The position numbers and the translations under genes were made by a program. From contig NZ_UFTA01000002.1 in assembly GCF_900445265.1 (NCBI RefSeq), positions 1 to 64,000 on the forward strand: a stretch of DNA of 64,000 nt, in the 5' to 3' direction. The notes under the pieces were generated by a model that was given only the letters and a program-made list of their open reading frames with translations, made no database searches and was not told the DNA's origin. This DNA is from Anaerococcus octavius. Lineage in GTDB: Bacteria > Bacillota > Clostridia > Tissierellales > Peptoniphilaceae. Of this stretch, positions 30,009-33,304 are shown in pieces (positions within the stretch are counted from its first letter, which is position 1; every line of letters begins with the position of its first letter).

Positions 30009-30037
30009 TTGACAAAACGTTTTCTTCGTTCTATACT
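30009..30037 (+). promoter_or_regulatory. Promoter of the dehydrogenase-flavodiiron operon
   Basis: TTGACA (30009-30014), 17-bp spacer, TATACT (30032-30037). The TATACTATAGTA sequence at the -10 is an imperfect palindrome and could hold an operator. Confidence 0.85.
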
Positions 30038-30072: not shown

Positions 30073-31998
30073 ATGCTATTTAGAACAACTGACGAGCATG
30101 AAGCTTTACGTAAAAAAGTTAGAGCTTTTGCTGAAGAAAAGGTAAAACCAATTGCCTTTGATCTCGATCAAAAAAATGAATTTCCAGATGACATTGTAAA
30201 AGAAATGGGCGAACTAGGATTTATGGGCATCCCATATCCAAAAGAATACGGTGGTCAAGGCTTAGATGCAATTTCTTATGCTATAACAGTAGAAGAATTA
30301 TCTAGAGTTGATGGTGGTGTTGGTGTAATTTGCTCAGCACACACATCATTAGGTAGCTGGCCAATATTTGCTTATGGTACAGAAGAACAAAAGAAAAAAT
30401 ATCTCACTCCTCTAGCTAGCGGTAAAAAACTAGGTGGATTTGGCCTTACAGAAGAAAACGCAGGTTCAGATGCAGGTGGAACAGAAACTACTGCAGAACT
30501 TGACGGAGATCATTACATATTAAATGGTAAAAAAATATTTATTACAAATGCTCCAAAAGCTGATACTTATGTTGTATTTGCAGTAACTACACCAGGTATA
30601 GGAACACATGGAATCTCAGCTTTTATAGTAGAAAAAGAATTTGAAGGATTTACCTTCTCTGATCATTATGACAAATTAGGTATAAGATCATCTTCTACAG
30701 CTGAGTTACATTTTGATAATGTAAAAGTTCCTAAAGAAAACTTATTAGGTAAAGAAGGTCAAGGCTTTAAGATTGCTATGGAAACACTTGACGGTGGTAG
30801 AATAGGTATAGCAAGTCAAGCTTTAGGTATAGGTCAAGGCGCTTATGAATCAGCTCTAGCTTATGCAAAAGAACGTGAACAATTTGGTATGCCAATAGCT
30901 CACTTACAAAGAAATACATTTAAACTTGCAGATATGGCAACATATTTACATGGTGCAAGACTTATGATTTATCATGCAGCAGATCTAAAAACTCATCATG
31001 AAAGATACTCTGCGGAAGCTGCTATGGCTAAACAAGTTGCATCAGACTTAGCTATGCAAATAACTACAGAAGCTATCCAACTTTATGGTGGTTCAGGATT
31101 TATTAAGGGTGTTGATGTAGAAAGATTCTTTAGAGATGCAAAAATCACTCAAATCTATGAAGGAACCAACGAAATTATGAGAGTTGTAGTTGGAGCTAAC
31201 ACAGTAGGTCGTCCTCCCAGAGTTAAAACAGTTGGAGGAAAATCTAAACAAGGCCCAATCGCAGGAGTTAGAAAAGGCGAAATCTTTGAGGGAGATCCTA
31301 AAGAAGCTGTTAAGAATTTAGTAGCCGCTCTTAAAAAAGACGGATACGACTTTACAGTAGGTATCGACCCATGGACACCAGTTACAGAAGCTGAAAGAAT
31401 AGTAGTAGCAGGTCGTGGTATAGGCGATAAAGAAAATATGAAACTTATAGAAGAACTTGCTTACCAAGCAGGAGCTGCTATATCTTCATCTAGACCAGTA
31501 GCAGAAACACTTAAATACGTACCACTTGATAGATATGTAGGTATGAGTGGACAAAATTTCAAAAACAACTTATATATCGGTGTAGGAGTATCAGGAGCAG
31601 GTCAACACTTAAAAGGTATCCGTGATGCATCTACAATAGTTGCAATTAATAATAGCAAAAACGCTCCAATATTTGCAAATGCTGATTATGGTATAGTTGG
31701 AGACTTTAAAGAAGTATTACCATTATTAATAAAAGAATTAGACAATGGTGAGGAAAAGAAACCAGCTCCACCAATGAAAAAGGTAAAAAGAAGCAAACCA
31801 CGTAAAATGGCACCAAAAGAAGATTTATATGTAGATTTAGGTTCAGGTTATGAATATGATCCAGAAGTTGGAGATCCAACTCAAGGTATAGAAGCAGGTA
31901 CACCATTTGATAAATTACCAGATTCTTGGGTATCACCAGTATCAGGTGAAGCAAAAGAAGAATTCATTAAAGTTGAATTCCCAGAGGATAGAAAGTAG
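30073..31998 (+). CDS. Acyl-CoA dehydrogenase / EtfA FAD domain / cysteine-less rubredoxin-like fusion
   Basis: A 641-residue three-part flavoprotein. Residues 1-378 form an acyl-CoA dehydrogenase ([41 protein letters not shown] with the expected Glu catalytic region). Residues about 390-560 match the FAD-binding C-terminal half of ETF alpha ([20 protein letters not shown], then ADYGIVGD). Residues 585-635 align end to end with rubredoxin ([20 protein letters not shown]), but all four iron ligands are replaced: D588, S591, S621, S624. It therefore cannot hold a normal FeS4 site. It has a consensus promoter and sits six bases ahead of a flavodiiron protein, implying joint electron transfer. 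The acyl substrate is not readable. Confidence 0.93.
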
Positions 31999-32004
31999 GC
32001 AAGT

Positions 32005-33255
32005 ATGTATACAGTTAGAAAAGTAACAGATGACTTATATTATGTAGGTGGGGATGATAGAAGATTAGCTTTATTTGAAAATATATTCCCAATTCCTGAA
32101 GGTGTATCATATAACTCCTACCTACTAATGGATGAAAAAACAGTTTTAGTAGACGCAGTAGACTGGGCAATTACACGTGAATATATATTAAATGTTGACC
32201 GTGTATTAGATGGACGTGAATTAGATTATCTTATAGTAAATCACATGGAACCAGACCATTGTTCATCAATCGAGCTAATGCTACAAAGATATCCAAACCT
32301 AAAAATTATCTCAAGTGAAAAAGCTATACTTTTCATGAGACAATTTGGCTATCACGTAGATGATAGATATATAGAAGTAAAAGAAGGCGATACCATGAAC
32401 TTTGGTAAACATACCTTAGCTTTTGTAGAAGCACCAATGGTTCACTGGCCAGAAGTACTAATGACTTATGATACAACTGATGGAGTATTATTCTCAGCAG
32501 ATGCCTTTGGTTCATTTATAGCGAATAATGGTAGATTGTTTGCCGATGAAGTTGATTGGGATCGTGATTATCTAGATGAAGCACGTCGCTATTACACGAA
32601 TATCGTAGGAAAATACGGTACATTTGTACAAAAAGCTTTGGAAAAAGCTGGTGGATTAGATATAAAATATATCTGCCCACTTCACGGACTTGTATGGAGA
32701 GATAATTTTGGATATATCTTAGATAAATATACACACTGGGCAACATATGAACCAGAAGAAGATGGTGTATTAATTGTCTATGCTTCTATGTATGGTAATA
32801 CAGAATTTGCAGCTCAAGCTCTAGCAGCAAAACTATGTGAAGCAGGTATTACAAATATCAGCCTAAGAGATGTATCCAATACTCACGTTTCAGTTCTAAT
32901 AGCAGAAGCTTTCAAGTATTCAAATATAGTACTGGCATCAGTGACATATAACTTAGGTGTTTATCCACCAATGCAAAATTTCATCGAAGATATGAAAGCT
33001 TTAAATGTTCAAAATAGAGCTGTATCTATTATAGATAATGGTTCATGGGCTCCACAAGCAGGAGAAAAAATGGAAAAATATCTAGATGAAGAAATGAAAC
33101 TCATGGATGTTCTTCCAGAGCAATTAAACATGGTAAGCTCATTAAAAGCAATGAAAGAACCAGATATGGATGCTATAGTAGAAGGAATCCAAGATTCTAT
33201 TAAAAAACGTAAAGAAGAAAAAGAAAAATCTGCATCACAAAATAAGAAAAAATAA
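32005..33255 (+). CDS. Flavodiiron protein (A-type flavoprotein, FprA-like)
   Basis: Reduces oxygen to water, or nitric oxide to nitrous oxide, in anaerobes. The 416-residue protein has an N-terminal metallo-beta-lactamase-like diiron domain with all ligands present: H80, E82, D84, H85 in NHMEPDH, then H in MVHWPE, D in SADAFG and H in CPLHG. The flavodoxin domain (about 255-400) carries the FMN loop YASMYGNTE. C-terminal residues are Lys-rich. Such proteins normally take electrons from rubredoxin. Here the partner encoded six bases upstream has a rubredoxin fold without cysteines. Start AAGTATG with a weak AGGCA site, suggesting coupling to the upstream gene. Confidence 0.94.
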   Translation: MYTVRKVTDDLYYVGGDDRRLALFENIFPIPEGVSYNSYLLMDEKTVLVDAVDWAITREYILNVDRVLDGRELDYLIVNHMEPDHCSSIELMLQRYPNLKIISSEKAILFMRQFGYHVDDRYIEVKEGDTMNFGKHTLAFVEAPMVHWPEVLMTYDTTDGVLFSADAFGSFIANNGRLFADEVDWDRDYLDEARRYYTNIVGKYGTFVQKALEKAGGLDIKYICPLHGLVWRDNFGYILDKYTHWATYEPEEDGVLIVYASMYGNTEFAAQALAAKLCEAGITNISLRDVSNTHVSVLIAEAFKYSNIVLASVTYNLGVYPPMQNFIEDMKALNVQNRAVSIIDNGSWAPQAGEKMEKYLDEEMKLMDVLPEQLNMVSSLKAMKEPDMDAIVEGIQDSIKKRKEEKEKSASQNKKK

Positions 33256-33265
33256 TATAAAAATA

Positions 33266-33304
33266 AAAAAGCTGGCAGCAGATAGCCAGCTTTTTCTTTT
33301 TTTA
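33266..33304 (+). terminator. Terminator after the flavodiiron gene
   Basis: AAAAAGCTGGC / GCCAGCTTTTT stem with a T-rich tail. Confidence 0.9.

Follow-up and report, generated by a model that had tools for sequence, protein, structure and literature searches.

How can a flavodiiron protein (FDP) be supplied with electrons when the rubredoxin domain encoded beside it has lost every cysteine that would hold its iron? Rubredoxin (Rd) is the usual electron donor of FDPs, and the question is raised by a two-gene locus in the first 64,000 nucleotides of contig NZ_UFTA01000002.1 of Anaerococcus octavius (RefSeq assembly GCF_900445265.1; this whole stretch is called the window below). The first gene encodes a fusion of an acyl-CoA dehydrogenase (ACAD), an FAD-binding domain of EtfA, the alpha subunit of electron-transferring flavoprotein (ETF), and a rubredoxin-like domain; the second encodes an FDP. 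Sequence comparison points to a clade-wide loss of the four iron ligands, while selection has preserved the remainder of the domain. This suggests that the FDP can receive electrons without that iron. The two genes and their parts are:

30073..31998, + strand: BCR-like fusion gene (ACAD, EtfA FAD domain, ligand-less rubredoxin domain), 641 aa, from the open reading frame (ORF) and Pfam
30088..31200, + strand: acyl-CoA dehydrogenase domain, residues 6-376, from Pfam and a solved-structure match
31381..31740, + strand: EtfA C-terminal FAD-binding domain, residues 437-556, with the genus-specific residues V445, S471, G503 and V506
31822..31983, + strand: rubredoxin-fold domain without cysteines, residues 584-637, from Pfam, solved-structure matches and predicted fold
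31834..31845, + strand: D588-x-x-S591, in place of the first CxxC
31933..31944, + strand: S621-x-x-S624, in place of the second CxxC
32005..33255, + strand: class A FDP gene, 416 aa, from ORF, Pfam and diiron motif

The ORFs, Pfam and alignment bear out the domains and the four substitutions that the original prediction had read from this DNA, with the ligand codons at 31834-31836 (D588), 31843-31845 (S591), 31933-31935 (S621) and 31942-31944 (S624). Pfam places Acyl-CoA_dh_N/M/1 at residues 6-375, ETF_alpha at 437-517 and Rubredoxin at 592-631 of the fusion. The top solved match of the dehydrogenase domain is 5ol2_C, the acyl-CoA dehydrogenase of a Bcd/Etf complex. The part earlier called EtfA is its C-terminal FAD-binding domain and not the whole protein; according to the ETF_alpha match and alignment to solved ETFs it retains the SR and SGA-x-QH flavin loops. 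The tight operon also stands, with a gap of 6 bp between the fusion and FDP genes when the ORF coordinates are checked. The window FDP has a flavodoxin domain and all seven residues (H80, E82, D84, H85, H147, D166 and H227) of the diiron motif, H-x-E-x-D-H...H...D...H. These seven are kept in 27/27 FDPs of the genus (27 of 28 were used, one incomplete protein being omitted) and in 107/107 others examined.

Ligand loss and selection on the rubredoxin domain

Homologues were gathered from a partial sample of genomes (130 from the family, 249 from the order, 391 from the class and 398 from the phylum) and from the best 80 loci of a capped scan. The fusion is present in 29 of the 31 Anaerococcus genomes searched (none was found in G013 and G025), and all 29 have D,S,S,S at the ligand positions. 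The cysteines are therefore lost across the clade and not in the window copy alone, which is 99% identical to the fusion of another genus genome (G012). Merging identical sequences leaves 28 distinct Anaerococcus proteins, and an FDP lies directly downstream in 28/28. The 166 distinct ACAD-EtfA fusions among the gathered loci fall into 28 with D,S,S,S, 110 with four cysteines and 28 without an Rd domain, with no intermediates. All 110 distinct Rd-bearing homologues outside Anaerococcus, among which no independent loss of ligands was found, have C,C,C,C; two frameshifted fusions excluded from the 110 (L101 and L128) also have CxxC and CPEC. Four copies from Fusobacteriaceae (L084, L089, L099 and L106) keep all four cysteines. 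A divergent cysteine-bearing fusion from Allobaculum mucilyticum (L098, 58% identical) is one for which no FDP was found directly downstream.

In a tree of 94 representatives built with the Rd columns omitted, the cysteine-less proteins form a single group (SH-aLRT branch support 100); the cysteines are retained in both of the nearest genera, G096 (80% identical) and G092 (76%). Because the cysteine-less proteins are one group and both sister genera are cysteine-bearing, the tree places the replacement of all four ligands on one stem branch. The loss is strongly supported by these alignments, and judged from its residues the Anaerococcus Rd domain cannot form an Fe(Cys)4 site.

The domain is nevertheless maintained. 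Within the genus the ligand codons have undergone at least 17 changes on the gene tree, switches between TCN and AGY serine codons included, and none of these changed an amino acid. The ratio of nonsynonymous to synonymous differences (pN/pS) within the genus is 0.179 for the Rd domain, 0.160 for the EtfA domain and 0.099 for the dehydrogenase domain. Among cysteine-bearing proteins, the two sister genera not counted, 17 Rd columns have the same residue in 90% or more; in Anaerococcus only the four cysteines changed and the other 13 were kept. On average the domain carries a net charge of -8.7 in cysteine-less and -8.9 in cysteine-bearing proteins. Retention of the domain and of its D,S,S,S residues under selection is thus strongly supported by the sequences.

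The same domain is still recognised as a rubredoxin. The Pfam Rubredoxin match has an E-value of 5.9e-13 and 49.1 bits against a cut-off of 23, and the last 85 residues of the fusion match solved rubredoxins with a best E-value of 3.4e-14. In AlphaFold2 models made from the 29 cysteine-less sequences alone, block means of the per-residue confidence score (pLDDT) in the Rd part reach 84-90 in the best model, which superposes on Desulfovibrio gigas rubredoxin (1rdg) at Z 10.4, with an rmsd of 0.8 A for 52 residues, once the Foldseek matches are re-examined. The rubredoxin fold is therefore predicted to persist in the cysteine-less domain. The sequence match also found a cysteine-less Pf rubredoxin variant in the PDB (PFRD-XC4, 1qcv), reportedly designed as a metal-free protein by Strop and Mayo in 1999. 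It resembles the Anaerococcus domain as a folded rubredoxin chain without cysteines, but it is man-made and has other replacement residues, whereas the Anaerococcus case is natural, conserved and genus-wide. Since this variant exists and rubredoxin is reported in PMC3945938 to refold without iron, iron is unnecessary for the fold and a chain of this fold can exist without it.

Likeness to known oxygen reductases

The original prediction had proposed that the two proteins form an acyl-CoA-driven oxygen reductase. The architecture does match one, the butyryl-CoA oxygen oxidoreductase (BOOR, composed of BCR and FDP) characterised in Fusobacterium nucleatum (PMC12288474), and the idea is therefore not new; BOOR is also treated in PMC13404960 and PMC12630350. 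Both systems have the same fusion of ACAD, EtfA C-terminal domain and rubredoxin with a class A FDP directly downstream, and the fusion of Fusobacterium gastrosuis is 69% identical over residues 1-633. They differ in that the Fe(Cys)4 relay is absent from the Anaerococcus fusion, with D,S,S,S in all 28 distinct proteins, and in that the EtfA FAD domain has also changed. Butyryl-CoA-dependent O2 reduction by an alpha4beta4 complex is a trait of the known system, the Anaerococcus pair being known here from sequence.

The Anaerococcus domain likewise resembles the family Rubredoxin (PF00301) in sequence, predicted fold and charge, but lacks the four cysteine ligands in two CxxC loops. Some FDPs bypass rubredoxin, namely a class with a fused flavin reductase domain and the F420H2 oxidase FprA, chains of which are among the solved-structure matches of the window FDP. 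In these a flavin or deazaflavin delivers electrons to the FDP FMN with no rubredoxin in between, as is proposed for Anaerococcus, where however the donor would be the FAD of an ACAD/EtfA fusion and a ligand-less Rd domain is retained. FDPs with a fused flavin oxidoreductase domain are also mentioned in PMC12288474. No mention of a cysteine-less rubredoxin form or of Anaerococcus FDPs was found in the literature searched, which left out the founding BOOR paper. The novelty is the iron-free Rd domain, the two-gene BOOR architecture being already known.

Candidate routes of electrons to the flavodiiron protein

In the mechanism that we propose, the dehydrogenase domain would oxidise a short acyl-CoA, probably butyryl-CoA, and pass the electrons to the FAD of the EtfA domain. 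Where the tethered rubredoxin has its Fe(Cys)4 site, as in an ordinary BOOR, it would then relay them to the FDP FMN, and the FDP would reduce O2 to water. In Anaerococcus the ligand-less Rd domain would retain both the fold and the acidic surface and hold the FDP in place for docking or assembly. The FMN would be reduced directly by the EtfA FAD from within a remodelled pocket. Judged from the sequences, the chances that the pair is such a BOOR form with an iron-free, docking rubredoxin seem evenly balanced, and the direct step from FAD to FMN, taken by itself, could about as readily prove right as wrong. That the domain holds no metal, that it docks the FDP and that the electrons pass directly are inferences.

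Four of the 69 conserved EtfA columns changed on the branch on which the ligands were lost (S445V, G471S, A503G and I506V), and both sisters keep the old residues. By comparison, one of 204 conserved columns changed in the dehydrogenase domain (post hoc Fisher p 0.015). That sole dehydrogenase column altered on the genus stem is L87C (fusion residue 87, window 30331-30333). By comparison with human ETF, residues 471, 503 and 506 lie in or beside the flavin-holding SR and SGA-x-QH loops. A503 is present in 110/110 cysteine-bearing fusions, and A503 and I506 are both kept in 24/24 separate EtfA proteins of the gathered loci, that of A. nagyae included. Gene conversion from an Rd-less paralogue was considered as a source of the changes and is not supported: the window EtfA domain is 80.8% identical to that of sister G096, and same-genome comparisons with the paralogue reach 62.5% at most (16 genomes). 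An EtfA tree, built on few columns, keeps the Anaerococcus group with its two sisters, which also speaks against conversion. In the FDP, five sites are fixed differently between the cysteine-less and cysteine-bearing groups, and only at N17D and T339A do both sisters have the old residue. These two changes were considered as counterparts of the ligand loss, but are absent by eye from the FDPs of two loci with Rd-less fusions (L100 and L040), and nothing is drawn from them.

Fusions without any Rd domain offer a second line of comparison. Seventeen of the 28 distinct Rd-less ACAD-EtfA fusions adjoin an FDP, and the other 11 have none seen nearby. Sixteen of the 17 are Anaerococcus copies (L263-L273, L258-L260, L040 and L257, in 16/31 genomes) oriented divergently from a second FDP, which is 44-48% identical to the window FDP. 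The remaining one, L100:89-3100 (JAAYEL010000045.1), in a Tissierellia metagenome-assembled genome of the window's family, is an Rd-less fusion followed directly by a co-directional FDP, and so a rubredoxin-free pair outside Anaerococcus. At least two of EtfA positions 445, 471 and 503 are changed in all 17 fusions beside an FDP and in none of 65 cysteine-bearing representatives. This sharing of pocket changes with Rd-less, FDP-linked fusions is suggestive only. Among the copies beside the second FDP, L040, L259 and L260 belong to an ACAD-EtfA group that evolves fast, with a branch of 1.5 changes per column and about 40% identity to the window protein. A transposase-like ORF (by eye) stands between fusion and second FDP in G026 (L257), and the Rd-less fusion of G029 (L262) is broken into two frames.

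A fuller version of the proposal holds that the rubredoxin was retired. Its metal site would have become a conserved D-x-x-S/S-x-x-S core, the domain would serve as a metal-free adaptor, an ETF FAD retuned on the same branch would feed the FDP FMN, and rubredoxin-free BOORs would have evolved more than once, in Anaerococcus and in the Tissierellia relative with an Rd-less fusion and FDP. To this version we give somewhat less than even credence.

Several observations weigh against a direct, iron-free transfer within this pair. The Rd domain is somewhat less constrained here than in two cysteine-bearing groups (pN/pS 0.179 vs 0.130 and 0.069), as is the EtfA domain (0.160 vs 0.105 and 0.101 in the same groups), in a comparison where synonymous changes are close to saturated (median dS of about 1). 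The five structural models are uneven, with mean pLDDT of 75.5 and 75.2 vs 62.4, 52.5 and 45.1, and the predicted template-modelling score is 0.51 for 85 residues including the linker. In the EtfA domain, position 471 is S in 9/110 cysteine-bearing fusions and is also variable among separate EtfA proteins. Five of the 11 Rd-less fusions without a nearby FDP are also changed at two or more of positions 445, 471 and 503; four of these five form one Anaerococcus paralogue group. Three of the 11 are limited cases: for L253 and L199 the flank on a side extends no further than about 1.6 kb, and L181 is ambiguous, being a tandem copy that neighbours a cysteine-bearing fusion with its FDP and has a stop codon within the searched stretch. 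Across four independent pairs in the tree, the pocket change coincides with having an FDP neighbour but no Rd iron in about 3.9 of 4 (sign test p 0.125) under a definition chosen post hoc; the figure is about 2.7 of 4 for position 503 alone and 3.1 of 4 for any change. The second Anaerococcus FDP is found in 31/31 genus genomes, including the two in which no fusion was detected, so that adjacency is no proof of partnership. The same distribution weakens the notion that this second FDP is a dedicated partner of the iron-less fusions. It lies divergently just upstream of the cysteine-less fusion in eight Anaerococcus genomes (L022-L029), in one of which, G009 (L026), the second FDP next to the cysteine-less fusion is split into two frames. 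Finally, a standalone rubredoxin gene is present in 31/31 genus genomes, so that an iron carrier is available in trans.

The main alternative follows from this last point. A free Fe-rubredoxin would shuttle between the FDP and its electron source, either the ETF FAD or another reductase, and the tethered domain would be a scaffold only. In its favour, rubredoxin is the customary donor of FDPs, and the free rubredoxin of the window genome, of 58 aa, has CTACG and CPVCG loops. On the other hand, this gene lies about 97 kb away, beside ORFs resembling typA and a glycosyltransferase (by eye, with no family search). Rubredoxin matches occur in 117/130 family genomes, and family genomes with a cysteine-bearing fusion have at least two such matches each, one being the fusion itself. 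Because rubredoxin genes are general in the family, special compensation by the free copy is unsupported, a matter separate from any role in trans. Carriage in trans would also leave the strict D,S,S,S conservation unexplained, and we consider it rather unlikely. At one locus (L189, G088:C8:5648-5788) a free rubredoxin gene stands about 1.3 kb downstream of a cysteine-bearing fusion gene, and so close to its FDP. The direct transfer put forward in the original prediction has circumstantial support, from the same-branch EtfA changes and the Rd-less fusions beside FDPs, but the free rubredoxin of every genus genome could act in trans instead.

Alternatively, the two proteins may be uncoupled. 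The fusion would then act alone, as a flavin oxidase or dehydrogenase, its apo-rubredoxin being kept for folding or oligomerisation, and the FDP would be fed from elsewhere. This would suit the 11 of 28 distinct Rd-less fusions with no FDP seen nearby, one of which (L038) lies in an operon resembling, by eye, the butyrate pathway. It fits poorly with an FDP directly downstream in every distinct Anaerococcus case and only six bases away in the window, and with the retained acidic charge and conserved columns of the Rd domain; moreover, the Rd-less fusions suggest that the fusion folds without that domain. Such uncoupling is unlikely.

Reuse of the old site, with D588, S591, S621 and S624 binding another oxygen-loving metal or forming the polar core of a new function, is very improbable. 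The invariance of the four residues in 29 genomes despite the codon changes would agree with it, and the PDB holds a rubredoxin with a single Cys-to-Ser change (1be7). However, no metal site of D,S,S,S make-up is known to us, no systematic search having been made, and a metal is not required to explain the fold, given 1qcv and the iron-free refolding reported in PMC3945938. Pseudogene decay or a sequencing or assembly error, of negligible probability, is ruled out by 29 genomes with identical ligand residues, open frames and the partner gene, and by the Rd pN/pS and the at least 17 silent ligand-codon changes, even though all four cysteines are present in close relatives from other genera.

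Putative operon signals and possible meaning for the genus

Two putative regulatory elements flank the operon:

30009..30037, + strand: candidate sigma-70-like promoter of the two-gene operon, TTGACA-N17-TATACT, 11/12 positions
33266..33295, + strand: intrinsic-terminator-like hairpin 3' of the FDP gene, detected on both strands

The first of these is the consensus promoter noted earlier. Although the region has no more promoter-like matches than shuffled sequence (13 observed vs a mean of 16.5, standard deviation 5.1), a TTGACA-based match begins 57-76 bases 5' of the start codon in 29/29 Anaerococcus loci. A palindrome, AAAACGTTTT, at window 30014-30023 reaches from the end of the -35 hexamer into the spacer, and TTGACAAAACGTTT is common to 12/29 genus promoters in a count by eye; the palindrome or TTGACAAAACGTTT is perhaps an operator.

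If the proposed direct transfer is true, rubredoxin iron would be dispensable in a flavodiiron electron chain, contrary to the usual relay scheme, and the domain would exemplify, in nature, a metal-binding fold that selection maintains although the metal site has gone. Common human-associated anaerobes would likewise be seen to handle oxygen with one metal site fewer. The natural pairs of cysteine-bearing and cysteine-less fusions, 69-80% identical (those of F. gastrosuis and the two nearest genera), provide a ready experiment on how direct electron supply from an ETF-type FAD to an FDP can work.

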